From positions 154,501 through 218,500 of the forward strand of contig JBAIAA010000252.1 of the NCBI GenBank assembly GCA_037893245.1: a DNA stretch of 64,000 bases, given 5' to 3'. How positions within the stretch are numbered: position 1 is the stretch's first letter; every line of letters starts with the position of its first letter. Made by a program: the position numbers and the translations under genes. Shown one piece after another: positions 1 to 57,853 of the stretch. The stretch is from Crossaster papposus (lineage: Eukaryota; Echinodermata; Asteroidea; Velatida; Solasteridae). Below the pieces are notes generated by a model. It was not told the origin of the DNA and ran no database searches. It worked only from the letters and a program-made list of their open reading frames with translations.

Positions 1-110
1 GCCACCAGTTGCACAATGATAGCCAACATCTGCAAGCCATTAAACTACACATATTTACAATCCTTTGAATCAAACCCTGGCCCCCAAATCCACATAATCA
101 TTTGAAACCT

Positions 111-145
111 TAGTCAGTTGGCCGAGTGGTCTAAGACGCGGGATT
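111..145 (+). pseudogene. tRNA-like 5' fragment (Leu/Ser type)
   Basis: The stretch contains TGGCCGAGTGG, the A box typical of tRNA-Leu and tRNA-Ser genes, preceded by a plausible acceptor 5' strand. It is not followed by an anticodon arm. It runs directly into the left arm of the foldback element that follows. A T-arm-like piece with GTTCGAATCCC lies at about 601-611, beyond the element, but its acceptor strand does not pair with the 5' end. Seen: the A-box and B-box words. Inferred: a tRNA-derived sequence disrupted or rearranged by the inverted repeat; not a working tRNA. Confidence 0.45.
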
Positions 146-154
146 CGAACGTGT

Positions 155-195
155 GCCCGGGCGCTCCTAAGGCTCCGCCTTAGGAGCGCCCGGGC
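155..195. other. Perfect 19-bp hairpin with 3-nt loop
   Basis: GCCCGGGCGCTCCTAAGGC at 155-173 is followed by a TCC loop (174-176) and its exact reverse complement at 177-195. The stem is G+C-rich inside otherwise A+T-rich DNA, so it would extrude or fold very stably. It sits in the left arm of the 146-613 foldback only. Confidence 0.85.
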
Positions 196-360
196 AGCGA
201 ATTTTTTTTTCCCAAACAGGTTTGCAAAATTTCATGAATTATTCAGTAGTTTGGATGAGAAGTTATGTTTATTCATCGGAAAAAAACATGACGTCACATC
301 ATTGTTGTTATTAGTTAACTAGTTACAATAAATCACTTTAAAGAACAGCTGTTGTCGAGC

Positions 361-434
361 TGCTATACGTAGTGTAGTGGATAGTGGGATTGGCTATGGA
401 TCAAAGATCCCGGGTTCGAATCCTGGTGTAGTAG
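361..434 (+). pseudogene. tRNA-like sequence (pol III A and B boxes)
   Basis: A perfect A box TAGTGTAGTGG (370-380) and perfect B box GGTTCGAATCC (413-423) lie at normal tRNA spacing. Acceptor strands TGCTATA (361-367) and TGTAGTA (427-433) pair with two G-T wobbles, and the T stem CCGGG/CCTGG pairs with one. The anticodon arm does not form a clean 5-bp stem, so no anticodon is assigned. It is probably the head of a SINE or a tRNA pseudogene, although a real but odd tRNA cannot be excluded without a covariance search. Confidence 0.5.
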
Positions 435-739
435 GTCACCTCGTTTTTCCTAGTCAAATTGATATCTTTAGAGTATTTTTAATTTAAGGGGAAAAGGAGA
501 CCTAGAACCTAAGTGTTGTACAGCGATCAACGCAACTACTGAATAATTCATGAAATTGTGCAAACCTGTTTGGGAAAAAAAAATTCGCGCCCGGGCACGC
601 GTTCGAATCCCGCAGTGGTTTTGATTTCGGTGATTTTTATTTTTACTTTTGAATTGTTTCCCTTTTTTCCCCGCTGTCCTAAACCCTCAATCTACCAAGG
701 TAAAGAGTAAATATCATAGCCAAAATAATACAAATAATG

Positions 740-1365
740 ATTAGAATAATAATAAAATACTTTCATTTGATTATTATCAGCAGGTTGGATGTAGATCATG
801 CATTAGCCTCAAACAGGAACTTTTTTCAATATTTTAACGATGTATGGACTTATTTGTATAAATGTTTTTGTATTGGTGTAATTATCCTTGTATTATATTG
901 TATGTGTGTTTTTAGATATTTTGATGTAAATAGTATTGTATTTATGTGTATTGTTAGTTGCCCGTTTCACAGATGTCAGGTTTTGTTTGTGACTTAATTT
1001 TAATTAATTTTGACTTAAAAACAAGTAAAGTAAAAATATATATCATAACGAAAATTGTAAACAAATTTATTCGAACATCTAAGAATAATAACGTAATTTT
1101 ATTGTATTATTACCAGGAGGGTGGGTGTAAATCATGCATTAGCCTGAACACTCAGGATCTTTATTAATTTAACGATGCACGATCTTATTTGTATAAACGT
1201 TTTTGTATTGGTGTAAAAAGCCCTTGTATTTAGGTATTTTGATGTAAATGTTGTTGTATTTCTATGTATTGTTAGTTGTCGTTTTACAGATGTACGGTAT
1301 TGTTTGCGACTTGTGATAATTGTTTTGTTAATTTTGACAAACAAGTAAAGTAACAAATATATTTT
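740..1365. repeat. Diverged direct duplication, unit about 340 bp
   Basis: Two direct copies (about 740-1,045 and 1,080-1,365) share blocks such as ATCATGCATTAGCCT, TTATTTGTATAAA, TTTTTGTATTGGTGTAA, TATTTTGATGTAAAT and AACAAGTAAAGTAA with many substitutions between them. Flanking pieces near 680-725 and 1,385-1,435 also resemble each other. The region is A+T-rich and no coding signal is supported. Positions 1,366-1,875 show nothing further. Confidence 0.65.
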
Positions 1366-1875
1366 TTAATATGTTTTAAGTGTTCGAAACCCTTAACCCA
1401 CCGAAAAAAGGAGTATATCATAACGACATTTTTAAACTCATTATTTATAACAATTATAACGAACAAAGTTTATTTAATTGCAAATCAGAGGAACATGTAT
1501 AGTGTAACATTTAAAATCGTTTTTGTCAAACGGAAACATTTTATTTTGTTTTCATGATTATTATTATATTATATTAATTATCAATTAATACCAAGATTGT
1601 TGCTCGTGTTGCACGTAGTAAAATTACAATTTAATAATAATAAGTAGGACGTACGTACAATGTACATGTATTATGTTACTGGAAATTAACTGAGTTTGCA
1701 GTCTTGTAGATGCATTTTCTGTCAGGGCATGAATAACTAAAAACTCGTCTGAGAGTGTGTAAAATAAATTACATTAAAGAAATCGTCAATTACTAAAATT
1801 GTGTGACTAGTCTTGAATTAATAATTTTGTTCTCCGAAAATAAGGTAATTTTACGGTCTAAACCGTTGTATTTTA

Positions 1876-2191
1876 TCTAAATTCACCCGTCTATAAAGAA
1901 AGCCATTATTACACGCGTTTTGAGACCAGCTAATATTACATGTTATTTGATTGGGAATCACATGCAGAGTACCAGCTATAGTATCATTTCATCAACATTT
2001 TCTCTAAATTCACCCGTCAATAGAGGGCGCGAATATTAACATGCGTTTTGGGACCAGCTAATATTACATGCTATTTGATAGGGAATCACCCGCAGGGTAC
2101 CAGCTATAATATCATTTTATCAAAATTTTCTCTAAATTCACCCGTCAATAGAGGGCGCCAATAATTACATGGGTTTGGGGACCAGCTAATA
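1876..2191 (+). repeat. Tandem repeat family B, left array (unit about 127 bp)
   Basis: About 2.5 tandem copies are marked by TCTAAATTCACCCGTC at 1,876, 2,003 and 2,131, so the period is 127-128 bp. Each copy also has TAGAGGGCG, GGGACCAGCTAAT, GCTATTTGATAGGGAATCAC and TACCAGCTAT. The same family lies in the same orientation inside and at the far end of the satellite. Confidence 0.85.
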
Positions 2192-5100
2192 ATTAATTAT
2201 CATAATTATTTTGATCTAATTTGCATACAAATGCAAGGCAAACCCCTTATCAATTAATTTAAGTGACAATGGAAACATTTTTGCATAATTAAATTGTTTG
2301 CATATTTATTATATTTTGACCTAATTTGCATACAAATGCAAAGTTAACCCCTTATCCATTAATTTAAGAGACAATAGAGATATTTTTGCATAATTATCAT
2401 ATTGTGACCTTATTTGCATACAAATGCAAGGCTATCCCCTTATCAATTAATTTAAGGGACAATGGAGACACTTTTGCATAATTAAGATTTTTGCATATTT
2501 ATTATATTTTGACCTAATTTGCATACAAATGCAAGGTTAACCCCTTATCCATTAATTTAAGGGACAATAGAGACATTTATGCATAATTATCATATTGTGA
2601 CCTAATTTGCATACAAATGCAAAGCTATCCCCTTATCCATTAATTTAGGGACAATTGAGACCTTTTGCATAATTATTATATTTTGACCTAATTTGCATAC
2701 AAATGCAAGGCTAACCCCTTATCCATTAATTTAAAGGACATTTGAGACATTTTTGCATAATTATATTTCTTTGACCTAATTTGCATACAAATGCAAGGCT
2801 AACCCCTTTTCCATTAAGTTATGGGACAATGGAGAAATTTTTGCATAATTTTATTTTTTGCATAATTATCATATTTTGACCGAATTTGCATACAAATGCA
2901 AGGCTATCCCCTTATCAATTAATTTAAGGGACAATGGAGACATTTTTGCATAATTATAATGTTTGCATATTTATTACAATTTGACCTAATTTGCATACAA
3001 ATGCAAGGTTAACCCCTTATCCATTAATTTAAGGGACAATGGAGAAATTTATGCATAATTATCATATTGTGACCTAATTTGCATACAAATGCAAGGCTAT
3101 CCCCTTATCAATTAATTTAAGGGACAATGGAGATATTTTTGCATAATTATCATATTTTGTCCTAATTTGCATACAAATGCAAGGCTATCCCCTTATCAAT
3201 TAATTTAAGGGACAATGGAGACATTTTTGCATAATTATAATGTTTGCATATTTATTACAATTTGACCTAATTTGCATACAAATGCAAGGTTAACCCCTTA
3301 TCCATTAATTTAAGGGACAATGGAGAAATTTATGCATAATTATCATATTGTGACCTAATTTGCATACAAATGCAAGGCTATCCCCTTATCAATTAATTTA
3401 AGGGACAATGGAGATATTTTTGCATAATTATCATATTTTGTCCTAATTTGCATACAAATGCAAGGCTATCCCCTTATCCATTAATTTAAGGGACAATGGA
3501 GAGATTTTTGCATAATTATAATATTTTGACATAATTTGCATACTAATGCAAGGCTATCCCCTTATCAATTAATTTAAGGGACAATGGAGACATTTTTGCA
3601 TAATTATAATGTTTGCATATTTATTATATTTTGACCTAATTTGCATACAAATGCAAGGTTAACCCCTTATCCATTAATTTAAGGGACAATAGAGATATGT
3701 TTGCATAATTATCATATTGTGACCTTATTTGCATACAAATGCAAGGCCATATCTCCTTATCAATTAATTTAAGGGACAATGGAGACAATTTTGCATAATT
3801 ATTATATTTTGACATAATTTTGCATACTAATGCAAGGCTAACCCCTTATCCATTAATTTAAGGGACAATGGAGACAATGGAGATATTTTTGCATAATTAT
3901 CATATTGTGACCTTATTTGCATACAAATGCAAGGCTATCCCCTTATCAATTAATTTAAGGGACAATGGAGACATTTTTGCATAATTATTATATTTTGACC
4001 TAATTTGCATACAAATGCAAGGCTAACCCCTTATTCGTTAATTTAAAGGACATTTGAGAAATGTTTGCATAATTATATTTGTTTGACCGAATTTGCATAC
4101 AAATGCAAAGCTAACCCCTTATCAATTAATTTAAGGGACAATGGAGACATTTTTGCATAATTATTATATTTTGACCTAATTTGCATACAAATGCAAAGCT
4201 AACCCCTTATCAATTAATTTAAGGGACAATGGAGAAATTTTTGCATAATTAAGATTTTTGCATATTTATTATATTTTAACTTAATTTGCATACAAATGCA
4301 AGGTTAACCCCTTATCAATTAATTCAAGTGACAATGGAGACATAATTATCATATTTTGACATAATTTGCATACGAATGCAAGGCTAACCCCTTATCCATT
4401 AATTTGATGGACAATGGATAATTTCTTGCATAATTATCATATTGTGACCTAATTTGCATACAAATGCAAGGCTATCCTCTTATCAATTAATTTAAGGGAC
4501 AATGGAGACATGTTTGCATAATTATAATTTTGGCATATTTATTATCTTTTGACCTAATTTGCATACAAATGCAAGGCTAACCACTTATCCATTAATTTAA
4601 GGGACAATGGAGACATTTTTGCATAATTATCATATTGTGACCTTATTTGCATACAAATGCAAGGCTATCCTCTTATCAATTAATTTAAGGGACAATGGAG
4701 ACATGTTTGCATAATTATAATTTTGGCATATTTATTATATTTTGACCTAATTTGCATACCAATGCAAGGCTAACCACTTATCCATTAATTTAAGGACAAT
4801 GGAGACATTTTTGCATAATTATCATATTGTGACCTAATTTGCATACAAATGCAAGGCTATCCTCTTATCAATTAATTTAAGGGACAATGGAGAAATTTTT
4901 GCATAATTATTATATTTTGACATAATTTGCATACGAATGCAAGGCTAACCACTTATCCATTAATTTAAGGGACAATAAAGACAATGGAGAGATTTTTGCA
5001 TAATTATCATATTGTGACCTTATTTGCATACAAATGCAAGGCTATCCCCTTATCAATTAATTTAAGGGACAATGGAGACATTTTTGCATAATTATTATAT

Positions 5101-6795
5101 TTTGACCTAATTTGCATACAAATGCTATCCCCTTATCCATTAATTTAGGGACAATTGAGACTTTTTGCATAATTATTATATTTTGACCTAATTTGCATAC
5201 AAATGCAAGGCTATCCCCTTATCAATTAATTTAAGGGACAATGGAGACATTTTTGCATAATTATAATTTTTGCATATTTATTATAATTTGACCTAATTTG
5301 CATACAAATGCAAGGTTAACCCCTTATCCATTAATTTAATGGACAATGGAGACATTTATGCATAATTATCATATTGTGACCTAATTTGCATACAAATGCA
5401 AGGCTATCCCCTTATCAATTAATTTAAGGGACATTGGAGACATTTTTGCATAATTATTATATTTTGACATAATTTGCATACGAATGCAAGGCTAACCCCT
5501 TATCCATTAATTTAAGGGACAATGGAGACAATGGAGAGATTTTTGCATAATTATCATATTGTGACCTTATTTGCATACAAATGCAGGGCTATCCCCTTAT
5601 CAATTAATTTAAGGGACAATGGAGACATTTATGCATAATTATCATATTGTGACCTAATTTGCATACAAATGCAAGGCTAACCCTTATCAATTAATTTAAG
5701 GGACAATGGAGACATTTTTGCATAATTATTATATTTTGACCTAATTTGCATACAAATGCAAGGCTATCCCCTTATCCATTAATTTAGGGACAATTGAGAC
5801 TTTTTGCATAATTATTATATTTTGACCTAATTTGCATACAAATGCAAGGCTATCCCCTTATCAATTAATTTAAGGGACAATGGAGACATTTTTGCATAAT
5901 TATAATTTTTGCATATTTATTATAATTTGACCTAATTTGCATACAAATGCAAGGTTAACCCCTTATCCATTAATTTAATGGACAATGGAGACATTTATGC
6001 ATAATTATCATATTGTGACCTAATTTGCATACAAATGCAAGGCTATCCCCTTATCAATTAATTTAAGGGACATTGGAGACATTTTTGCATAATTATTATA
6101 TTTTGACATAATTTGCATACGAATGCAAGGCTAACCCCTTATCCATTAATTTAAGGGACAATGGAGACAATGGAGAGATTTTTGCATAATTATCATATTG
6201 TGACCTTATTTGCATACAAATGCAGGGCTATCCCCTTATCAATTAATTTAAGGGACAATGGAGACATTTTTGCATAATTAAGATTTTTGCATATTTATTA
6301 TATTTTGACCTAATTTGCATACAAATGCAAGGTTAACCCCTTATCCATTAATTTAAGGGACAATAGAGACATTTATGCATAATTATCATATTGTGACATA
6401 ATTTGCATACAAATGCAAGGCTATCCCCTTATCAATTAATTTAAGAGACAATTGAGACTTTTTGCATAATTATTATATTTTGACCTAATTTGCATACAAA
6501 TGCAAGGCTAAACCCTTATCCATTAAGTTATGGGACAATGGAGACATTTTTGCATAATTATATTTTTTGCATAATTATCATATTTTGACCGAATTTGCAT
6601 ACAAATGCAAGGCTTAGCCCTTATCTATTAATTTAAGGGACAATTGAGACATTTTTGCATAATTATTATATTTTGACCTAATTTGCATACAAATGCAAAG
6701 CTAACCCCTTATCAATTAATTTATAAGGCATTTAAGACCATTTAGCATAATTATCATATTGTGACCTAATTTGCATACAAATGCAAGCTCACCCC
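2192..6795 (+). repeat. Satellite family A, forward array (monomer about 88 bp)
   Basis: Roughly fifty head-to-tail copies of an A+T-rich monomer. The core is CCTAATTTGCATACAAATGC, then AAGGCTAACCCCTTATC, ATTAATTTAAGGGACAATGG, and TTTTTGCATAATTAT. The monomer carries a perfect inverted repeat TTGCAT-ACAA-ATGCAA and usually two octamer-like ATTTGCAT or TTTGCATAAT words. Some units carry an insert with a second TTTGCATATTTATTA. Local multi-monomer duplications occur, for example a period near 281 bp around 3,120 and 3,402, and near 639 bp around 5,145 and 5,784. No ORF. Confidence 0.95.
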
Positions 6796-7679
6796 TTCAT
6801 GTATTTCCCTTAAATTAATTAATAAGAGGTTAGCGTTGCATTTGTATGCAAATTAAGTCAAAATATGATAATAATGCAAAAATGTCTCCATTGTCCCTTA
6901 AATTAATTGATAAGGGGTTAGCCTTGCATCTGTATGCAAATTAGGTCAAATTATGATAATTATGAAAAAATGTCTCCATTGTCCCTTAAATTAATTGATA
7001 AGGGGGTTAGCCTTGCATTTGTATGCAAATTAGGTCAAAATATGATAATTATGCAACAAATTTAATTATGCGAAAATGTCTTCATTGTCCCCTAAATTAA
7101 TTGATAAGAAGATAGCCTTGCATTTGTATGCAAATTAGGTCAAAATATGATAATTATGCAAAAAATGTCTCCATTGTCCCCTAAATTAAATGATAAGGGT
7201 TTAGCCTTGCATTTGTATGCAAATTAGGTCAAATTATGATAATTATGCAAAAATGTCTCCATTGTCCCTTAAATTAATTGATAAGGGGTTAGCCTTGCAC
7301 TTGTATGCAAATTAGATCAAAATATGATAATTTTACAAAAATATCTCCTTGTCACCTAAATCAATTGATAAGGGGTTAGCCTTGCATTTGTATGCAAATT
7401 AGGTCAAAATGTGATAATTATGCAAACAATATAATTATGCAAAACTGTCATCACTGTCCCTTAAATTAATTGATAAGGGGATAGCCTTGCATTTGTATGC
7501 AAATTAGGTCAAAATATGATAATTATTCAAAAATATCTCTATTGTCACATAAGTTAATTGATAAGGGGTTAGCCTTGCATTTGTATGCAAATTAGATCAA
7601 AATATGATAACTGTGCAAAACATTATCCATTGTCCCTTAAATTAATAATTAATTTAAGGAACAATGAATAATTGTTTGC

Positions 7680-7936
7680 CTAATTATGCTATTTGATAGG
7701 GAATCACGTGCAGTGTACCAGCTATAATATCATTTTATCTAAATGTTATCTAAATTCACCTGTCAATAGAGGGCGTCAATAATTACATGCGTTTTGGGAC
7801 CAGCCAATATTACATGATATTTTATAGGGAATCACGTGCAGTGTACCAGCTATAATATCATTTTATCAAAATGTTATCTAAATTTACCTGTCAATAGAGA
7901 GCGCCAATAATTACATGCGTTTTGGGACTAGCTAAT
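7680..7936 (+). repeat. Family B repeat inside the inverted satellite
   Basis: About two copies of the 127-bp family B unit (GGGAATCACGTGCAG, TACCAGCTATAATATC, CACCTGTCAATAGAGGGCG, GCGTTTTGGGACCAG). They are in the same orientation as the left flank array although the surrounding family A is inverted. They share substitutions such as CACCTGTC with the other internal copies. Confidence 0.85.
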
Positions 7937-8990
7937 AATTGATAAGGGGTCAGCGTTGCATTTGTATTCAAATTACGTCAAAATATGATAATTATGCAAA
8001 AATGGCTCCATTGTCCCCTAAATTAATTGATAAGCGGTTAGCCTAGCATTTGTATGCAAATTAGGTCAAAATTTGATAATTATGCAAAAATATCTCCATT
8101 GTCACTTAAATTAATTGATAAGGGGTTAGCCTTGCATTTGTATGCAATTAGGTCAAAATATGATAATTTGCAAAAAATATAATTATGCAAAAATGTCTTC
8201 ACTGTCCCTTAAATTAATAGAAAAGGGGTTAGCCTTGCATTTGTATGCAAATTAGGTCAAAATATAATAATTATGCAAAAATGTCTCCATTGTCCCTTAA
8301 ATTAATTGATAAGGGGATAGCCTTGCATTTGTATGCAAATTAGGTCAAAATATGATAATTATGCAAAAATGTCTCCATTGTTCCTTAAATTAATTGATAA
8401 GGGAATAGCCTTGCATTTGTATGCAAATTAGGTCAAAATATGATAATTATGCAAAAATGTCTCCATTGTCCCTTAAATTAATTGATAAGGGGTTATGATT
8501 AGGGTATAGCCTTGCATTTGTATGTAAATTAGATCAAAATATGATAATTATGCAAAAATATCTCAATTTTCACGTAAATTAATTGATAAGGGGTTAGCTT
8601 GCATTTGTATGCAAATTAGATCAAAATATGATAATTGTGCAAAAATATCCCCTTGTCACCTAAATTAATTGATAAGGGGTTAGCCTTGCATTTGTATGCA
8701 AATTAGATCAAAATATGATAATTTTACAAAAATATCCCCTTGTCACCTAAATCAATTGATAAGGGGTTAGCCTTGCATTTGTATGCAAATTATGTCAAAA
8801 TGTGATAATTTTGCAAAAAAATATAATTATGCAAAACTGTCATCACTGTCCCTTAAATTAATTGATAAGGGGATAGCCTTGCATTTGTATGCAAATTAGG
8901 ACAAAATATGATAATTATGCAAAAATATCTCCATTGTCCCTTAAATTAATAATTAATTGAAGGAACAATGAATAATTGTTTGCCTAATTA

Positions 8991-9080
8991 TGCTATTTGA
9001 TAGGGAATCATTTAAATGTTATCTAAATTCACCTGTCAATAGAGGGCGTCAATAATTACATGCGTTTTGGGACCAGCTAA
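8991..9080 (+). repeat. Partial family B unit
   Basis: One shortened copy (GCTATTTGATAGGGAATCA, then a deletion, then TCTAAATTCACCTGTC, TAGAGGGCGTC and GGGACCAGCTAAT). The next sequence TGATTGATAAGGGG re-enters family A at a junction that recurs at 9,670 and 10,524. Confidence 0.75.
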
Positions 9081-9129
9081 TGATTGATAAGGGGTCAGCG
9101 TTGCATTTGTATGCAAATTACGTCAAAAT

Positions 9130-10837
9130 ATGATAATTATGCAAAAATGGCTCCATTGTCCCCTAAATTAATTGATAAGCGGTTAGCCTAGCATTTGTAT
9201 GCAAATTAGGTCAAAATATGATAATTGTGCAAAAATATCCCCTTGTAACCTAAATTAATTGATAAGGGGTTAGCCTTGCATTTGTATGCAAATTAGATCA
9301 AAATATGATAATTTTACAAAAATATCCCCTTGTCACCTAAATCAATTGATAAGGGGTTAGCCTTGCATTTGTATGCAAATTATGTCAAAATGTGATAATT
9401 TTGCAAAAAATATAATTATGCAAAACTGTCATCACTGTACCTTAAATTAATTGATAAGGGGATAGCCTTGCATTTGTATGCAAATTAGGACAAAATATGA
9501 TAATTATGCAAAAATATCTCCATTGTCCCTTAAATTAATAATTAATTGAAGGAACAATGAATAATTGTTTGCCTAATTATGCTATTTGATAGGGAATCAT
9601 GTGCAGTGTACCAGCTATAATATCATTTTATCTAAATGTTATCTAAATTCACCTGTCAATAGAGGGCGTATGATTGATAAGGGGTCAGCGTTGCATTTGT
9701 ATGCAAATTACGTCAAAATATGATAATTATGCAAAAATGGCTCCATTGTCCCCTAAATTAATTGATAAGCGGTTAGCCTAGCATTTGTATGCAAATTAGG
9801 TCAAAATATGATAATTATGCAAAAATATCTCTATTGTCCCTTAAATTAATTGATAAGGGGTTAGCCTTGCATTTGTAGGCAAATTAGGTAAAAATATAAT
9901 AATTATGCAAAAATGTCTCCATTGTCCCTTAAATTAATTGATAAGGGGATAGCCTTGCATTTGTATGCAAATTAGGTCAATATATGATAATTATGCAAAA
10001 ATGGCTCCATTGTCCCCTAAATTAATTGATAAGCGGTTAGCCTAGCATTTGTATGCAAATTAGGTCAAAATATGATAATTGTGCAAAAATATCCCCTTGT
10101 AACCTAAATTAATTGATAAGGGGTTAGCCTTGCATTTGTATGCAAATTAGATCAAAATATGATAATTTTACAAAAATATCCCCTTGTCACCTAAATCAAT
10201 TGATAAGGGGTTAGCCTTGCATTTGTATGCAAATTATGTCAAAATGTGATAATTTTGCAAAAAATATAATTATGCAAAACTGTCATCACTGTACCTTAAA
10301 TTAATTGATAAGGGGATAGCCTTGCATTTGTATGCAAATTAGGACAAAATATGATAATTATGCAAAAATATCTCCATTGTCCCTTAAATTAATAATTAAT
10401 TGAAGGAACAATGAATAATTGTTTGCCTAATTATGCTATTTGATAGGGAATCATGTGCAGTGTACCAGCTATAATATCATTTTATCTAAATGTTATCTAA
10501 ATTCACCTGTCAATAGAGGGCGTATGATTGATAAGGGGTCAGCGTTGCATTTGTATGCAAATTACGTCAAAATATGATAATTATGCAAAAATGGCTCCAT
10601 TGTCCCCTAAATTAATTGATAAGCGGTTAGCCTAGCATTTGTATGCAAATTAGGTCAAAATATGATAATTATGCAAAAATATCTCTATTGTCCCTTAAAT
10701 TAATTGATAAGGGGTTAGCCTTGCATTTGTAGGCAAATTAGGTAAAAATATAATAATTATGCAAAAATGTCTCCATTGTCCCTTAAATTAATTGATAAGG
10801 GGATAGCCTTGCATTTGTATGCAAATTAGGTCAATAT
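9130..10837. repeat. 854-bp higher-order tandem duplication within the satellite
   Basis: Two nearly identical 854-bp blocks (about 9,130-9,983 and 9,984-10,837). Each holds several family A monomers plus one truncated family B unit (9,588-9,669 and 10,442-10,523). Diagnostic words repeat at exactly 854 bp: AGAGGGCGTATGATTG at 9,661 and 10,515, and GGTCAATATATGATAA at 9,975 and 10,829. The near identity implies a recent duplication by unequal exchange or replication slippage. Confidence 0.85.
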
Positions 10838-12769
10838 ATGATAATTATGCAAAAATGGCTCCATTGTCCCCTAAATTAATTGATAAGCGGTTAGCCTAGC
10901 ATTTGTATGCAAATTAGGTCAAAATATGATAATTATGCAAAAATATCTCCATTGTCCCTTAAATTAATTGATAAGGGGTTAGCCTTGCATTTGTAGGCAA
11001 ATTAGGTCAAAATATAATAATTATGCAAAAATATCTCCATTGTCCCTTAAATTAATGGATAAGGGGTTAGCCTTGCATTTGTAGGCAAATTAGGTCAAAA
11101 TATAATAATTATGCAAAAATGTCTCCATTGTCCCTTAAATTAATTGATAAGGTGATAGCCTTGCATTTGTATGCAAATTATGTCAAAATATGATAATTAT
11201 GCAAGAAATATAATTATGCAGAAATGTCTCCATTGTCCCTTAAATTAATTGATAAGGGGATAGCCTTGCATTTGTATGCAAATTAGGTCAAAATATTATA
11301 ATTATGCAAAAATGTCTCCATTGTCCCTTAAATTGTTTGATAAGGGAATAGCCTTGCATTTGTATGCAAATTGTCAAAATATGATAATTATGCAAAAATA
11401 TCTCAATTTTCACGTAAATTAATTGATAAGGAGTTAGCTGGCATGCAAATTAGATCAAAATATGATAATTGTGCAAAAAATATAATTATGCAAAAATGTC
11501 TTCACTGTCTCTTAAATTAATTGATAAAGGGATAGCCTTGTATTTGTATGCAAATTAGATCAAAATATGATATTTTTACAAAAATATCCCCGTTGTCACC
11601 TAAATTATTGATAAGGGGTTAGCCTTGCAATTGTATGCAAATTAGGTCAAAATATGATAATTATGCAAAAAATATAATTATGCAAAAATGTCTTCACTGT
11701 CCCTTAAATTAATTGATAAGGGAATAGCCTTGCATTTGTATGCAAATTGGGTCAAAATATGATAATTATGCAAAAATGTCTCTATTGTCCCTTAAATTAA
11801 TTGATAAGGGGTTATGATTAGGGTATATAGCCTTGCATTTGTATGCAAATTAGATCAAAATATGATAATTATGCAAAAATATCTCCATTTTCACGTAAAT
11901 TAATTGATAAGGGGTTAGCTGGCATTTGTATGCAAATTAGATCAAAATATGATAATTGTGCAAAAAATATCTCCATTTTCACGTAAATTAATTGATAAGG
12001 GGTTAGCTGGCATTTGTATGCAAATTAGATCAAAATATGATAATCGTGCAAAAAATATAATTATGCAAAAATGTCTTCACTGTCTCTTAAATTAATTGAT
12101 AAAGGGATAGCCTTGTATTTGTATGCAAATTAGATCAAAATATGAAATTTTTACAAAAATATCCCCGTTGTCACCTAAATTATTGATAAGGGGTTAGCCT
12201 TGCAATTGTATGCAAATTGGGTCAAAATATGATAATTATGCAAAAATGTCTCTATTGTCCCTTAAATTAATTGATAAGGGGTTATGATTAGGGTATAGCC
12301 TTGCATTTGTATGCAAATTAGATCAAAATATGATAATTATGCAAAAATATCTCCATTTTCACGTAAATTAATTGATAAGGAGTTAGCTGGCATGCAAATT
12401 AGATCAAAATATGATAATTGTGCAAAAAATATAATTATGCAAAAATGTCTTCACTGTCTCTTAAATTAATTGATAAAGGGATAGCCTTGTATTTGTATGC
12501 AAATTAGGTCAAATTATGATAATTTTGCAAAAATGTCTCCATTGTCCCTTAAATTAATTGATAAGGCGTTAGCCTTGCATTTGTATGCAAATTAGATCAA
12601 AATATGATAATTATGCAAAAATATCTTCATTTTCACCTAAATTAATTGATAAGGGGTTAGCTTGCATTTGTATGCAAATTAGATCAAAATATGATAATTG
12701 TGCAAACAATTCTCCATTGTCCCCTAAATTAATAATTAATTGACGGAACAATGAATAATTGTTTGCCTA

Positions 12770-13098
12770 ATTATGCTATTTGACGTGCAGGGTACCAGCT
12801 ATAATATCATTTTATCTAAATGTTATCTAAATTCACCCGTCAATAGAGGGCGCCAATAATAACGTAATTTGGGACCATTTAATATTACATGCTATTTGAT
12901 AGGGAATCACGTGAAGGGTACCAGCTATAATATCATTTTATCAAAATGTTATTTAAATTCACCCTTCAATAGAGGGCGCCAATAATAACATGCGTTTTGG
13001 GACCAGCTAATATTACATGCTATTTTATAGGGAATCACGTGCAGTGTACCAGCTAGAATATCATTTCATCAAAATGTTATCTAAATTTACCTGTCAAT
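12770..13098 (+). repeat. Tandem repeat family B, right array
   Basis: About 2.5 copies of the 127-bp unit, with TCTAAATTCACCCGTC-like words at about 12,826, 12,952 and 13,080. The orientation is the same as the left array at 1,876-2,191. The two arrays bracket the family A satellite. Confidence 0.85.
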
Positions 13099-13103
13099 AT
13101 AAT

Positions 13104-13640
13104 AATTGAGCGAGTGAGTGATTGAGTTTAGGGTTTAACGCTGTACCGGTATCAGTGGCCATATTCACGGCGGGAATTTGTACAAATATAAGGCAATAGA
13201 TAGTAATAAAAAACAGTCCAGTGAACTGTGGATAATATATAAAACTTGGAGTCAGAAGGAACAATTATCACACAGGAAAAGAATGAGAACGTTTTAAAAG
13301 AATGAAAGAACCATTGTATAGAAGTTTAACGATAAACTAATTCTAGGCAGTTTTTCAGGAGAATCCTGTGGGAGGCGGACCATGGAGGACCCCCAGACAC
13401 ACGGCACCCTGTCTAAATGGGTCCCGCAAGGCCGGCCGTTTCCCTTGCAGTTTAAGGGCCCAGATCTCGCCGGTATTTTCACAGGTCCACATACCTCCGG
13501 GTGATGAGGGGACAATTGCACCGAGTGTCTGGTCAATCCTTCATGCAATGACCAGTCCTCCAGGACTAATAGAGCCCCTGTTTAACTGTCTATTAAATTA
13601 AAATATATAGATTGTGTCAATAAAATGTATAGGCTGAACC
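13104..13640. repeat. Probable dispersed repeat, G+C-richer than surroundings
   Basis: The segment starts with GAGTGAGTGATTGAGTTTAG and GTTTAACGCTGTACC, a wording like dispersed repeats common in marine invertebrates (TTTAACGCCG type). A G+C-rich part follows (about 13,365-13,570). The ORFs on both strands here look like translated noncoding sequence, with no recognisable domain. The family assignment is from memory and weak. Confidence 0.35.
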
Positions 13641-13699
13641 ATTTTGGTTTTATTCATTTAAGTTGTGGGTAATGTAGCTGGTTATGTCAGAAAAAAATG

Positions 13700-13885
13700 T
13701 TATTTAATATTGGATCTGGGAGATCTACTTCTTGTTCTATTCTTTGATTTAGTAGATATTTGCTGTAGTTCCGTGTAGTATACATCCATGTCCTCTTCGG
13801 CTTCATCATCTAGACTACTGTATTTGTTTTGTAGATTAGTTGGGTTTTTGTTGCCTTTTTTGGTTCGGTTACTGGATTCAGGCAT
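13700..13885 (-). CDS. Small ORF of unknown function, 61 codons
   Basis: The product is hydrophilic: a basic N-terminus, an acidic stretch around residues 25-33 (DDEAEEDMDV) and an arginine/serine-rich C-terminus (RTRSRSPRS). Its start codon lies three bases from an inserted inverted-repeat element (13,888-14,537), so any upstream coding sequence would be interrupted. It could be the C-terminal end of a LINE ORF1-like protein or chance. No domain is recognised. Upstream sequence beyond the element has an in-frame stop, so I cannot extend it. Confidence 0.2.
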   Translation of the reverse strand: MPESSNRTKKGNKNPTNLQNKYSSLDDEAEEDMDVYYTELQQISTKSKNRTRSRSPRSNIK

Positions 13886-13887
13886 TA

Positions 13888-14537
13888 GGCATCCTGAGCC
13901 ACGCAGCGCTTTTACGCGGCTTCCCAGAAATCTCGCTCAAACACCTGCGGACATTCGACCAGATCCGTGGTTATTAGCCCAAAAAATAATGCGCCCAATC
14001 AGAGCCTCCGTTACAAACAGACCAAGGCCGTTTTCCAAACCCCTGGCTTTAGCTCTGTCTCCGGCTACAGCCTATTGCTAAACTGTATGAATAAAGCCTG
14101 AGACGAAGACAAAGCTGGGGTTTGGAAACATGCGAACCTTGGCATGAAATTGCAGTTTTTCATTCATAAAACGTTCTTCCGCAACGCGCATTTCTATTGG
14201 TCCATTCGCTTGGAGATCTGAGGTGTTCTCACAAATGTTCATCCTCCCTCCCACGTAATTATTTTAATTTGTCGGAAAAATTGTAGAAATTAACGTCCAG
14301 AACGTGAAATAAAGCTTTGCTATTATATATTATACAGAATAAGAAAAATAAAAGACTGAAAAGCTACGTAAACGCCAATAAAATTACGTATAAAGGTAGA
14401 AATTGACCTTTTACCAGGGGTGGTCGTTCATATCATGTATTTGCCAACTTGTTTAATGATTGTTGCGAATGTCCGCAGTGGTTTAAGCGAGATTTCTGGG
14501 AAGCCGCGTAAAAGCGCTGCGTGGCTCAGGATGCTTA
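13888..14537. mobile_element. Non-autonomous DNA transposon (650 bp, long TIRs)
   Basis: Terminal inverted repeats of about 70 bp lie at 13,888-13,957 and 14,466-14,537. They share GCATCCTGAGCCACGCAGCG, TTTTACGCGGCTTCCCAGAA and TGCGGACATTCG. The flanks are TTA (13,885-13,887 and 14,538-14,540), compatible with a 3-bp duplication as in PIF/Harbinger elements. A second inner inverted pair (TTTCCAAACCCC near 14,033 and GGGGTTTGGAAA near 14,117) is nested inside. No transposase ORF is present, so mobilisation would have been in trans. Confidence 0.75.
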
Positions 14538-23555: not shown

Positions 23556-24280
23556 AACAAATATTGGGTAGCACCTGAACGGAATTCCAAACATCGTCAA
23601 AAGCGGAAAAGTATACCTTTTTGGTGAAAAATATAAAGTCAAACTCTAAACTATAGCTAGATCTATATCGACCAGTGGTGGTATAATTTGAAGTCAAACG
23701 GCGCCTTGCGCACACAACAGCAGGTTAATATCATTAAAAAAGAGTACACATATATCCCTGGAGAAAACACCAGCATTAATCACAGTGAGGCTAATAACCA
23801 TTACCCAAAATAAATAATCGAAATTAACATCTGCCCTCTAAGCGTTTCCTTTGTAAAGACGACATGTTGTTTGCACTCTGGAATTATGATTTATTAGTTC
23901 GGAGCAGTGGACTAATTATGAGTAGAAAATTCAGAATGAATTACACTACCTATCACGACCTTGGACTGACCCGGACTTGACCATCCATCTGCAGCTATAG
24001 TTAATGAGTAAATTCGGCGATCAGTTTCATATTGACGGAGTGAGTTTTTAATCGTAAGTGAAATGTGTACATGTACAATAGTTCCCACCCTTCACTTTTA
24101 AAGAAATATACATGGCTAGAATTTGTAAGAACTTACTATTGTACAAAAATCTTGTCATCTCATAATTATAATTGAGGTAAATAAACGTAAATTATGAAAA
24201 ATTGATATTCATTTTAGATGGATGCCCAATAGGCATACCATGGAGGTAGGAATCCATGGGCCTACTAAAATTCCGTATAG

Positions 24281-25000
24281 AGTGCGTTCGTTTAGCTCAC
24301 CCGAGTCGACACAGGTTACCCCCAGGTCGTTCGTTTAGCTCTGACGTCACACTCGAGACCCGGGGAGAGTAGAGTCACTGGTGGAAGACGTCACACGCAT
24401 GTGTTGTTCATTCCAAGCATTAATAGACAAATATGGCGGCCGGACAGTGGATACGTTCCAGTTTGGCCAAAATTAATTGGAGGTCTATGCATAATTGAGG
24501 GTCAGGTTGGCGTAGCGGTTCTATCCTCGCCTTTCACCGCTGTGACCCGGGTTCGAATCCCGCCTGGGCCAATATGTGGATTGGGTTTTCAGTCCCTACC
24601 TGATTTCGTGAGTTTAACCCAGGATATTCTTCTGGGGTTTTCCTCTCACCTCTAAAAGTGTACCTTCTTCTCATTGTCTTCTCTCTACAGGTTTCGTCCG
24701 GCTTGCGAGCTACAGTGCCGTTGGTCGCTTTTGAGGGATCCTTAGTTTCATTACCAGAAATAAAACAATAATAATTTATTGAGTTCATTGTGACTTAAGA
24801 AGCTGTAATTCCAGCCCGACGTTGTTACTTGTTTGCGACTGACGGTAAACGCAGTAAATCTCGCAGAAACCCCAGTCTGGCAATGGCGTTTTGTCAATAG
24901 CTACGGCCACGGTCTTATGGCCCACGTTTGAGCGTTCGTTTAGCTAGCGCGGCTCCCGTGGCTAACCCGTGTGTATGCCGACTTACTGAACGAACGCACC
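24281..25000. mobile_element. Non-autonomous TIR element interrupted by a SINE
   Basis: Ends are inverted: AGTGCGTTCGTTTAGCT at 24,281 and GAACGAACGCAC ending at 24,999. Further CGTTCGTTTAGCT words lie inside both ends (24,328 and 24,935). No transposase. A tRNA-derived SINE (24,497-24,785) lies within, so the host element is older than the SINE insertion, or carried it. Confidence 0.6.
24497..24785 (+). mobile_element. tRNA-derived SINE
   Basis: The tRNA-related head has A box TGGCGTAGCGG (24,508-24,518) and perfect B box GGTTCGAATCC (24,550-24,560). The body contains AACCCAGGATATTCTTCTGG and TTTTCCTCTCACC, and the tail is AATAAAACAATAATAATAA. The head-body-tail order and internal pol III promoter are diagnostic of a SINE. 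Confidence 0.75.
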
Positions 25001-25558
25001 CCCACTGACAAATTTATGTCGTGGGTAAAAAGAACCAGCAACGGGTGATTTTACAGTCAATATTTAAAGCAAATTGGCATTATTTTATTTGCAATAATTG
25101 GTTATGCCATGGAGGCAAAATTCCATGGTTACATGATTAAAGCTACATCCGGGGTACGAGTCGGCAAATTATAGTCCCTTCAAAAGAACGACTTATAGGT
25201 CTCCATCAATGGCTGTTGAAAATAATAACGGCAGTGTACAACACAAATTAAGACAGATCTCAGTTTTTCAAAACCCAAATATGTAAATAATGACACATTT
25301 ACTTCAGTACAAATTCCTTCTCAAGTTTCTTTACAATATTGATCAAGGTTCTGCGAAATCTTCTAGAATCGTGGTAAATGCCACGCCCGGCCCGCAGACA
25401 ACGACACTGAAACCACACGAATGTGCAGTGAAACGGTGCGAGGTGAAAGTAACGGTTGATACCCGCTAATGAACCCGGATAATTATTGTGTCACGTCCGT
25501 AAGATTGTGTGAGATAATCTTATCTAATAATGACATCATCCAAAATCCGTTCACTTTG

Positions 25559-25566
25559 TATAAAAG
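25559..25566 (+). promoter_or_regulatory. TATA box, candidate ADAMTS promoter
   Basis: TATAAAAG lies about 430 bp upstream of the ADAMTS start codon, on its strand. A start near 25,590 would give a 5' UTR of about 400 bp without an intervening intron. Inference from the motif and position only. Confidence 0.4.
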
Positions 25567-25996
25567 AGCACCGAATTGCTGTTGGGATGATATACTAAGG
25601 TCCGCGCAGAAAAAGCTAGCAAAATACTATTTAAAAGTAGTGTAAACTCATAATTTCACAGATTCATGACGCTCGTATGTGTCTTTGCGCCCTCAAGATT
25701 TCCCATTACCCGTCGTGTGATCTTTCCCTTACGACCGACGGCGTCACTGTCAACACGTCACCCACACAATCACCAACTTAATAAATGAAAAGTTTGACGT
25801 TGAGCAAATCCCAAAGGAAAAAGCTACCCTTCATTCAGAATACACCACTCACCACGCACATCATACGCATGGGCTAAGCACCCACACAGAAAATCTGTAC
25901 TCAACAAAACCACTACCACTACCAGCATTGTGAGCAAATCTGACATCAATAAGACAGTGAGGACAACGTAAGGCGATATACGAGACATTTACCCTA

Positions 25997-28900
25997 ATGG
26001 CTATTTCACACCGGACAAGACAGGAGTTCGTTGTAGTCACAATCGTCGTAGCTATTTTATTACACGGTGAAAATATTCGAACAAAGGTAAGTTACAAAAT
26101 CCATGGCCTTGTCGGTCAGAATGTTGAGTGAATATCCGGCGTTTACGTTTACCATGGAGCTATGCACACATTCACAGTATACGTGGTATAACTTAGTATG
26201 GTATTATTAGTATGGTATCTTGACTCGATCTGTGCAGTACATCGCACGGAGGTGGTTGTCTTAACGGGCCTGTCGTCAAGGCTGCGTTGCTCATAATCCC
26301 GCTAGCGTAACATAATACACGGACAGTCTTGAGAATAAAGTTAATTTGAAACCAGAGGCTGTAGGTCTAAATGGTTAAATTAAAAAAGTTGTTAAGTTTA
26401 CAGTGGCGTAACTGTGTGCGGGTGCACGTTCCCTCTGTCTGTCCGGCGTACCCCCTTTGCTTTGGTACCCCCTTCTCCATTTTAAATCTTGAATTACACA
26501 CAAACAATATATTATCAGCTTCCGTATACCCTTGAACATTCAACTCGTAGGTGTTTACAGTGATTTCTCATCATAATAATACCGGTTTGGTCGCTGTGAA
26601 CAAGTGGATTTTGGACGGAATGTCACAAAAAAACACACAGATTTTTGGGTAACCATACATGTTTGTGAATGAATAGGGTTAATGTTCAAACCAAATAGGT
26701 ATACTATTTATTACTATACTATTATTCTAAGATAATAAGGAAATCGTTTCAGAAATTGTAAACTGTGTTTAATTTTCTCGGGATCGGGTGGTATCCCTTC
26801 TTTATTCTCCATGGTATTCCTATTGTCACCCGAGAAAGGCGTGAGTGAACGACCATACGGCAAAGATTGTCTTGAAAACGCACAGGCAAACAAAATAATG
26901 ATTACAAGGTGACACGTTCATCAAAATAATACCATAGCTAGCGAAGTTACGATGTGAGTGACCCCTATAACGACGCCCCGTAGTCTTCGAACATGTCACC
27001 CTACATTCGTGACATTGCTATCAAGGCACGACCCACGAATGTGGGCAGAACATTAATCACTGTCTACAACAAGCAGCGCGACCTGGGGCGCATGACGTTA
27101 TTGGCAGGCCTGCATGCATCGCGCGCATGGATCATGGCATAATGATCGTACCCCAAAACAGTCCAAAACTATGGTGTTCTAAAACAGACAGGCAAACGTC
27201 GTGGTTTCACTTTCAAAACGTCGTGGTTCAAGTACACCATGCAGAACCAAGCTGTAAAACGGTTCCTTGTTTTATTTGGTATACCAAACAGCAGGTATAT
27301 TAACATTTACCTTTGTCAAATTCGCAAATCATGGAGGTAGTAAATGCTCTTACCAAGTTTAGTTCTTTGCAGACTTTAGTATAGGTATTTCGAATCAATA
27401 TAGATCGAGTTCTAACTGCCTGAACTTATGGAGTACTATTAAACAGATACTCACTTTCAAGTTTAGATCGACTATAGACAAGATTTATTATTAAACGGCT
27501 GCGTTACCAAAATGCCTTCGATACACAGCACAAGGTTAGTGTTTTGGGAAATTACTATTGGAAACAAACAAACAAACAAACAAACTGCATACAAAGTAAA
27601 GTATTCCTTTAATGACCCAGGTCAGATACTTTGAAGGTGGGAGCCTCCAACCATGAAGGTAGAATCTATTTCCATGCTCCAACCATAGCGATAATCATGA
27701 TGAGAGATACGTATATTTCAATGAATCCCGTGAGTGTTTTACGTCATATCCGCTGCCGCTAAATGTATGTTCTAGCGCTTCCCAAATACCAAGGCCATAC
27801 CGCTGAGCTGAACTTTGAACTTTGAACTAGAGGTCAACGACCTGTGGGGCACTGCTGTCAAGCTGTTTTAATAGTAGTTGTTCAGTAGGCTGAAAATACG
27901 GCGTACAACTTTTTAATTCGACATGATTCGCTTTAATTTGGCTGAATAAACGATCTCCACGTTGGCATTTTTGTTCAATATTTTGTTTTCAGTATGGGGT
28001 GTCAGTTTATGTCATAGCACATTACAACTGATGTAAGCGCCGAGTATTTACCGAGCTTCACCGTTAGCTGATATTACCTAAACAACTAATATACGTGTAC
28101 TTTGCGTGTACACTGTCTCAATCTCAAATTCAATCTCAATCTCAATATACTACAAATTTGGTGGTTTTTACCTGCACTCTGCATCCGTGTTGTAAATGAA
28201 AAATGTCCTCTCTTTAAAAATAGTTTCATTGTGAGAACTTTTGTAACTTGTATGTTAAGAATAAGAATGTCTATTTAAAAGCTAAAACTAAACAATGCGA
28301 CTCATTGTGGGCTTCACTCCACCTCAAACATAGAGTGTAACAACATTCAGTCAAGGTTATTGTGTCATCGACTGAATGTAGGTCAAAAGGAACATCTCGA
28401 AACGACTCATGCTGTCGAAGAAACCTTGACGGAGAATGTGGCACATACTAAACAGAACGATGACACGACAACCATGGACGGATGTACGGAACAGTACGTT
28501 GGCTTTTGCTTCAAGCCTTCAAAGAACTGCGATCTGTCTTCAATGACATTGGCAAGACAGTACGAATGGGCGCAAGATAAACATTTCTGAGAAATACGGT
28601 TGTCCTATAAGTTAAAGTGTGCAATTATGTGTTTTCCGCTGGTTCTTGGTATATGATGGCGTTACAGTTATTAGTGGTTACAGAATGAACATATTACACA
28701 TATTTTAAATTTAGTGTCCGTGTATAACAGACTCGATAACGATTCAGAGCAAAATCACTGCCCATACAATTGAAATCCCGCCCGAACAATTACAGTTCCT
28801 AAATCTTGTTGACAACAGTGAAACTGTATTCTAAATAGTGACTAGGAACTATTCTCAATTCGTACGTTTATCCCGAATTGCGGTCAGTATTGAGGGACTG

Positions 28901-31900
28901 TTACTCCTATGTTCTCTATTGATTCTGAATTCAGTTATGCCGTTATTGTTTTCAGGTTTCGTGTGCCAGCATTCCTAATCATGTTCCACTGCAAGCAAAA
29001 CATCGTAAGTACATGAAGTTCGTTATTTTTTGCAGGATACGCGCCAAAAGCTACCGTTTTAATTCATTTGCGCGCGCATTGTCATTATTGAACCAATCGC
29101 TCAACGATCTACGAATTTTGGTAACAAACGCCTGTGCCGTTTATTCATGAATTATAATTGTTTCCTTGTCCTTTCACGAACAGATCACCTGATTTCCAAA
29201 CTGTCACATTATGAACTGGTCAGACCTTACCGGTCCACATCGGACGGTAACTTTGTGACCCATGACCTCTCCACGACAAAAGAAGAGGAACTGAACGTGT
29301 ACAAGCGCGCCAAAAGAGACAGTCTCCAAAACCACAAAAATAGCGACCGCGCCTCGCCTCGTCACGCCCGTAGTACATCACATCGGATAGTGGGAGGCGA
29401 TCCCCACGATGACCTCCAGCTAAACCATCACTTCCGGGTCGACGCGTTCGGCGCTCGTCTGACTTTAAACGTAACGCGTAACCGTTTCCTGGTCTCGCCC
29501 ATGATGAGAGTCGAACGATACAATGAGGACGGCTCGAAAGACGTCTATCGGCCCAATACGCTGTGCTATTACACCGGCAGTGTGAACGACATTCAGAGGT
29601 CATCCGTTGCTATTAGCAACTGTGACGGATTGGTGAGTAAGATATATTTTGTGTGGTTTTTAGTTGGTGGGATTGTTTGTTCGTCTGATTGGGTAATTAT
29701 CAGTACCTTAATATCGATTTAACAGACCTAGCGTCAGTCGCGTACTTTTAATTCAGGATCAAGCTTGCGCGCGCTGAGCTCAGTAGAGTTTTTGAGGCAT
29801 GATCTAGTTTTAGTATTGACCTTTAACGTCACAGCGACGTACGTATAAGCAGATTGAACTTTACGTCACAGGTAGAGCGACCATAGACTGAACTATAAGC
29901 CACTTTGGAGTTCCGACTGCGCATGTGCACAACAAGATTCAACAATTTTTCTCAAGGAGGTCAAGTGATACAAACACGGCAGACAAATGCACACAAGGCT
30001 ATGGGGGACGTGGTAACCAAATCCGCATTTTTTACATTTTCTTGTGAAATCGAAAAAAAAAAAAATAATATTTGTTCGAACAAAAGTTTGGCCACACAAA
30101 GCGGCTGAAAACACCAAAACGTAAACAAAAATATGTTACTTAGTAACTTTAAAACACGACGATCTCTTGAAATTTGCTGGTACCCCGCTATGCTTTTGCA
30201 CGCAATCGATGAAATGTTTATATCGAAAGAAATATCGTCAAGGGAAAATGTGCGCATGTGCAGTTGGAATACCAAATTGGCTTATATGTCTATGAGAGCG
30301 ACGTATGCGCGCGCGCTCGCAGATTTGATAGTCTAAAGGCCTAGTCGGGAGAATACTTAAAATGAAAGAAACTGCAGCGTTTTTGTCTTTTGTCTGCTGT
30401 GACACTTTTGTTTGAAATTAATCCTTACACCCTTGAAAACCAGTAGTACATCGAGGTTATAACCAGAAATATATCAGTACTGTCGCCGCGACCCGAGTCG
30501 CCGATCTTTGCAAATCAAGTCCTCAACTCCTGGCGTTCGCCACGTGTTTAATTTTCAAGATATCGTGCGCGCGTAAAATTCTTGAGTAGATTTGGAGCTA
30601 ATCTATAATCGTGTCGTTTGAGGGCTGCAATTACTATCGTCTTATTTGGCAAAGACTAACGCACGGCAGGTCGATCGCAACGTGGTTAAGGACATAAAGG
30701 GGTAGAAATGAAAGGCAGCAATCGCCCAAAGTTTATTACAAATTAATATCAGTCTCCGCAGATGAAGAATAAACAAATTGTGATTAATCAAATCTTACAG
30801 TTTTAAACCACATTTAAAAATAGTGCTCGGGTGCGGTGCCCCCCCCCCCCCCCCCCCCACCCCCGGGTGCAGTGCCCCCCCCCCCCCCCCCCCCCCCCGG
30901 GTGCGGTGATGACATTTGATTTGTATAGATTAGATGTGCCTCTTTTTTTAGATTTATTTGTTGGCCAATTTTTACAGAGTGGCCTCATTCGAGCAGGGGG
31001 TGAGGAGTATGTCATCGAACCCCTGGAATCGGTGGTTGGGAGGTCAAAGGTTAACATATCCGAGGGACACCTCCACATTATGTACCGGCCTCGAGACTTC
31101 AAGATGGAAAACACCCAACTGAAAACAGATTGTAAGATCTCTCTTCAAAGATTACTCCTCTAAGATTGCTCTTCAAAGATTGTTCCTCTTAGATCGCTTC
31201 TCAAGGATTGCTCCCTCAAGGATCGCTCCCTCAAGGATCGCTCCCTTAAGGATCGCTCCCTCAAAGATTGCCCCTCAAAGATTGCCTCTCCAAGATTGTC
31301 CCTCCAAGATTGCCCCTCCAAGATTGTCCCTCCAAGATTGCCCCTCCAAGATTGCCCCTCCAAGATTTCCCCTCTTCTTATTTAATTGTTTTTCTAATCT
31401 AAGAAGATCCCTTTTTTCCCATTTTTTGTTAAGAATAGTAAATTAGCTTTTTGTTTGTTAGTGACCTGACCACAGTGGCCAGTTTGTGTTGCTTATTTTT
31501 ATACCATGGATCTCTGTTTTCAACAACTTCAGTGTCACCGGACCTGCATGGTGACACACCCGAGGAAAACAGATCCTCAAGACGACAGAAGGCTGGCCAC
31601 GTGAAGACGGAGACTTTCCATCGTGAAAGGAGACGTGCTGGAGAATCGGACCAGAAACACTTTGTGGAGACACTATTGGCTGCCGATTACTCCATGACAA
31701 GTTTCCATGGCGTGGATGCCATGACATCCTATTTGCTAACCATGTTGAATATTGTAAGTTTTTTATTAAAAGATGGATTAAAATATGGCGGATGACCACA
31801 TTTATGCATGTCTTATAATTAAAAGAAGCAGAAGACATTGGTTCTGTTTCAGTTAATATATTTTCTAAATTTGTTTTTGAAATAGGTCAATGTTGCTTAC

Positions 31901-46286: not shown

Positions 46287-57853
<11,567 letters not shown>

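Follow-up and report, generated by a model that had tools for sequence, protein, structure and literature searches.

What arranges a satellite head to head with itself over some 10 kb of a sea star genome? The window analyzed here is a stretch of 64,000 nucleotides from Crossaster papposus (contig JBAIAA010000252.1, called C252 below, with other contigs named likewise). Near its left end, a tandem array of short units, designated A, runs on one strand and then turns sharply onto the other. The original prediction, made from the sequence alone, raised several possibilities for this arrangement: a palindrome that could extrude, stall forks, or mark a breakpoint or a centromere-like locus, or an assembly junction between two contigs of one array. 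As set out below, the best reading is that the palindrome is the interior of a foldback-type element, which accounts for it better than does either a centromere or an assembly error.

RESULTS

Structure of the array in the window

A profile built from A units identified 107 of them, all at 2,195-12,706: 50 on the + strand and 57 on the -. The remainder of the 64-kb window, outside 2,192-12,765, yielded none, as did 100 first-order Markov shuffles of the array region. Units measure 86-88 bp, and the array totals ~10.5 kb. Tandem Repeats Finder also reported 105-bp and 17-bp periods for A, which fits a variant of the unit with 17 added bp. The most conserved segment of A is an inverted box around ATTTGCATACAAATGCAA, whose best 12-mers reach 0.97-0.98 compared with a mean of 0.94 across 1,240 units, a modest excess. 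We take this box to resemble a site for a POU-type factor.

The head-to-head layout was confirmed, with + units ending at 6,797 and - units starting at 6,804, in agreement with the sharp switch predicted near 6,797-6,805. The exact bounds varied with the query, from 6,797 or 6,802 on the left to 6,804 or 6,805 on the right. The further claim, of an ~88-bp array running 4.6 kb one way and ~6 kb the other, was borne out by the profile for the + arm and needs amending for the - half, which is not pure A. A second repeat of 128 bp, designated B, flanks the A array and breaks up its - half, and every B match in the window lies on the + strand, at the edges and in the interior alike (Table 1). As a single strand, 6,730-6,880 is predicted to fold into a single extended hairpin whose loop spans ~26 nt, at -37.6 kcal/mol vs -10.9 +/- 2.4 for shuffles; such a hairpin would be expected of any similar units joined head to head. 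Extrusion or fork stalling, as the original prediction suggested, would be a possible consequence.

Table 1. Features of the array and its surroundings, in window coordinates
Feature	Position	Strand	Evidence or remark
Outer domain, left arm, starting with a tRNA-like hairpin; insert at ~188-596	109-1860	+	Matches C797, C160
B tandem repeat, 2.5 units	1871-2193	+	Tandem Repeats Finder, profile search
A satellite, left arm, 50 units	2195-6797	+	Profile search
Strand switch, palindrome centre	6798-6803		Surrounding centre sequence found again at C797 near 821,420
A satellite, right arm, 57 units, broken by B blocks	6804-12706	-	Profile search
B block within right arm	7686-7948	+	Profile search
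B fragment within right arm, first	9019-9087	+	Profile search
B fragment within right arm, 854 bp ahead of the next	9579-9633	+	Profile search
B fragment within right arm, 854 bp past the previous	10433-10487	+	Profile search
B tandem repeat, right edge; not a mirror image of the left block	12774-13072	+	Profile search

Outer domain and its tip

To the left of the array lies an outer domain, of which 587-1860 is 99% identical to C797 and 84% identical to C160:773811-775112, while 788-1860 also matches C160:781324-782427 in inverted orientation at 82%. The window's outer domain thus flanks the C160:772-784k locus on both sides, in inverted order. The segment at 109-199 additionally resembles C160:247.7k. 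The window copy itself is one-sided, as sequence comparisons revealed no outer domain to the right of B at 12,774-13,072.

A 21-mer from the tip of this domain (117-137) occurs 11 times in the genome (1.02 Gb, 1,841 contigs), and every occurrence adjoins the B/A element family; the reversed 21-mer, used as a control, occurs nowhere in the 1.02 Gb. At C204 and C379, the 21-mer forms inverted pairs. As similarity continues past it in several copies, it is not the exact end of the element. That the tRNA-like tip might be a functional tRNA gene was considered and rejected, since ARAGORN found none in 11 loci, 10 of them with the tip. The sole tRNA that ARAGORN called in the window is a tRNA-His inside a 409-bp insert.

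That insert (188-596) sits in the tRNA-like hairpin; its inverted ends measure ~63 bp, and it holds a tRNA-His-like gene at 361-434. It is missing on C797 and has at least 36 other copies at 98-99%, so its insertion was probably recent. Separately, in one C160 copy, the tip hairpin of each arm is occupied by a ~1.25-kb GCGT-rich element (C160:772603-773834 and 782918-784157), the two being 91% alike and in direct orientation.

A paralogue of the window on C797

From about -866 to 14,540, the window aligns in pieces with C797, with differing numbers of repeat units. The C797 centre near 821,420 is the same as that of the window, and the longest exact word common to both nearby is 34 bases, from 6,822 on. 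The right flank (13,100-14,150) is 97% identical, and the C797 copy, like that of the window, is without the right outer domain. Past the tip, the two share ~0.9 kb, in pieces, and for this reason the pair looks like a segmental duplication. We then asked whether C797 could be a duplicate haplotype. Among the best 40 of 5,677 candidates, there was no second full-length copy of window 24,000-29,900, the other matches being to a ~280-bp dispersed repeat only, and homology was observed just over about -866 to 14,540. C797 is therefore best described as a paralogue, with a duplicate haplotype unlikely.

Comparison of individual A units separates the arms. Nearest neighbors of the window's + units were 53% window +, 39% C797 -, and 6% window -, and those of its - units were 60% window -, 32% C797 +, and 1% window + (1,149 of 1,240 units kept; the 91 with <75 aligned columns were left out). 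Because the units of each window arm are nearest to the same arm and to the matching C797 arm, the switch predates the split between the window and C797. Arm separation by unit was also clear in C95 and C195 and was lacking in C160:772-784k and in the short arm of C189.

Related loci across the genome

Among the matches listed, A is found on at least 12 contigs, including that of the window. Both orientations are present in 9 of 13 further A stretches (10 of 14 counting the window), which were picked from the top genome matches rather than as a random sample. The single-orientation stretches are C518:730k, C167, C673, and C498, and those on C167 and C498 run off the fetched sequence. Centre sequences appear different at most A loci, and C518 and C1092 have a common junction and flanks.

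Seven loci are palindromic and carry inverted non-repeat sequence beyond their arrays: four on C204, one on C379, C160:772-784k, and C797:994-1002k. The C204 loci (230k, 504k, 675k, and 785k) and that on C379 (165k) contain B only. In all five as fetched, B turns from + to -, the matches being 2-3 bp apart, and the outside pieces share ~75-96% identity. Among these, C204:502754-507076 is the sole copy with both outer edges fully read; elsewhere, similarity often reached the edge of the fetched sequence. The end at C204:502,754 is shared by ~30 places in the genome. C160:772-784k reads B+A+B+A+ and then A-B-A-(A+)B-, between inverted flanks of 86% identity over 1.2-1.4 kb. At C797:994-1002k, B+ and B- surround A arrays that are mainly - and then +, and the inverted outer matches are weak: one of 191 bp at 90%, which runs into the edge of the fetched sequence, and another of 132 bp at 79%. 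A further locus, C160:1,027k, holds 11 A- units followed by B+ and B-, with no inverted flank match in the fetched sequence.

An eighth palindrome, C95:1310541-1324786 (14 kb), has A inside and inverted ends of 96% identity over 1,054 bp. These ends largely match a ~320-bp satellite that forms arrays elsewhere, and we rejected them as members of the same family as the window's ends. Among the matches listed, that satellite forms one-direction arrays at C95, C150, C295, C464, and C657.

In one test of eight loci, an inverted flank match was absent from seven (among them C189, C195, whose right flank spanned just 156 bp, and the two C518 stretches) and present only at C95. The main polarity is + to - in 8 of 9 distinct loci, counting the window and C797 as one and C518 and C1092 as one, and - to + at C797:994-1002k; additional back-switches occur at C95, C160:772-784k, C518, and C1092. 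Uniform polarity as proof of a common origin is weakened by C797:994-1002k and by the back-switching loci.

Target sites, coding capacity, and genomic setting

No target-site duplication was found in either of the two copies read to both ends (C204:502754-507076 and C95), whose exact ends are uncertain. Across eight copies, some incompletely bounded, no open frame exceeded 137 aa from stop to stop, and Pfam gave no match for the three frames scanned of the six of at least 100 aa, so that these copies offered no transposase.

To the right of the array, open reading frames (ORFs) in the window match an ADAMTS-type propeptide (29,147-29,722) and a TSP1 domain (43,001-43,750), and a further match (50,771-51,169) covers a DEAD helicase domain in part, which places the array near genes. 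Those with ADAMTS-type domain matches lie 16-30 kb from it.

Other repeats lie in the same region. A ~650-bp element at 13886-14537 with 72-bp inverted ends has many copies at 84-96%, several of them equal-scoring across different contigs, and 13100-13633 is a ~530-bp dispersed repeat with at least 20 copies at 88-91%. Elsewhere in the assembly, the 16.3-kb contig C1841 carries a mitochondrial-type COX1 that, close to its start, reads STNHKDIG under table 9 (AAA = Asn, ATA = Ile) and STKHKDIG under table 5, which points to an echinoderm. A COX1-family gene at C8:5207163-5211509, on a contig of 5.3 Mb, is open under the bacterial code; the contig is perhaps from a bacterial associate or an assembly contaminant.

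DISCUSSION

We consider it fairly probable, from sequence comparison, that the window block belongs to a non-autonomous foldback-type DNA transposon family, as the interior of a large and worn-down inverted-repeat element. Long inverted terminal repeats are present in the four C204 copies, C379, C160:772-784k, and C95, and weakly at C797:994-1002k; the window copy has the left outer domain alone. Tandem repeats, either B or B with A, occupy both arms. Copies are dispersed over five contigs (C204, C379, C160, C797, and C252), with both outer edges fully read at C204:502754-507076 and with common flanks in the window/C797 pair. Against this reading stand the unmirrored B of the window, the missing target-site duplication, the lack of a transposase in the eight copies, the mixed polarity, and the seven of eight loci without inverted flanks, as do the satellite makeup of much of each C95 end, the likeness of the window/C797 pair to a segmental duplication, and the unclear separation of arms in C160:772-784k and C189. 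Membership of the window block in such a family is not proven, because neither of the two copies read to both ends has a target-site duplication and none of eight copies has a frame >137 aa.

Under the foldback reading, one arm would run from the outer domain through B repeats and, in some copies, A repeats, and the other would mirror it. The copies would have been dispersed by a transposase from a different element, binding their ends and perhaps also the A box. The palindrome was in place before the window copy and its C797 paralogue separated. The arrays of the two window arms would then have expanded and shrunk separately, as the unit neighbors support, possibly via unequal exchange or slippage. 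The window copy is one-sided, and its right arm, where B is + and the outer domain is missing, is rearranged. A more ambitious version, which we hold only as a doubtful conjecture, is a mobile macro-dyad, in which a foldback transposon would carry a satellite across gene-rich DNA already in the form of head-to-head palindromes, with ~100 ATTTGCATACAAATGCAA boxes per element serving as transposase or POU-type sites and with the module swapped between B-type and C95-type ends.

The strongest competing explanation, possible though somewhat unlikely in our judgment, involves no transposon. An ordinary euchromatic satellite would have become palindromic by inverted duplication, through fold-back template switching at a fork or break, and would then have been copied by segmental duplication. 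The flanks shared by the window and C797 outside the element, the junction and flanks shared by C518 and C1092, and the clustering of many B loci on two contigs (C204 and C160) would all follow, and both the target-site result and the seven loci without inverted flanks agree with it. It accounts less readily for the seven loci with inverted surroundings, which mostly share one outer domain, and for the paired, inverted tips of C204 and C379.

A macro-dyad (peri)centromere satellite is highly improbable here. In Tribolium madens, from which this explanation is drawn, such satellites occupy megabase putative pericentromeric regions with inversion sites ~98-99% conserved (PMC13081366). In its favor, subarrays here are likewise kilobases long and head to head, with two in most arrays. 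The differences are that the arrays here are short and dispersed, that A is on at least 12 contigs among the matches listed, and that centres differ at most loci. Centromeric satellites form long arrays in gene-poor DNA; here, the array is only ~10.5 kb, and ORFs with ADAMTS-type domain matches occur from 29 kb of the window, beginning 16 kb from the array, which disfavors the centromere-like locus first proposed. An assembly artefact, with two contigs from one array fused head to head, is very unlikely and the least probable of all, because the C797 paralogue has the same centre and 9 of 13 other stretches hold both orientations; the two window arms also differ in sequence.

The foldback reading has precedents. 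Tetris, a foldback transposon of Drosophila virilis, is described as having long inverted arms made of an outer domain and a ~220-bp internal tandem repeat, with modular, rearranged copies, no conserved ORFs, and arm repeats that also occur in longer arrays (PMC4079207). The family here agrees with that description on each of these points; it differs in that A and B are both in the arms and that none of the 8-10 bp target-site duplications of Tetris was found (PMC4079207). Galileo, of the P superfamily, has long, internally repetitive inverted ends and two-arm copies without transposase, and, as in the block here, repeat numbers are unequal between the two arms (PMC3573991). Galileo differs in having a known transposase, target-site duplications in most copies, and arms reaching ~1.26 kb, compared with several kb here (PMC3573991). 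Tetris and Galileo share one plan with the block here, at smaller scale and with target-site duplications. FB elements appear comparable as well.

Among echinoderms, TU elements are foldback elements of sea urchin, and our likening of the present family to them is by architecture. We found no paper on TU elements in the open-access library searched, and no description of such an array in an echinoderm among the titles listed there. The Tetris report lists sea urchin among foldback hosts (PMC4079207). If the foldback reading is true, it would add one more foldback element, probably in an echinoderm, as a nursery of satellite DNA, and it would explain how inverted satellite arrays arrive in gene-rich regions. 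It would also caution that a head-to-head satellite in one window is not necessarily a centromere or an assembly error.
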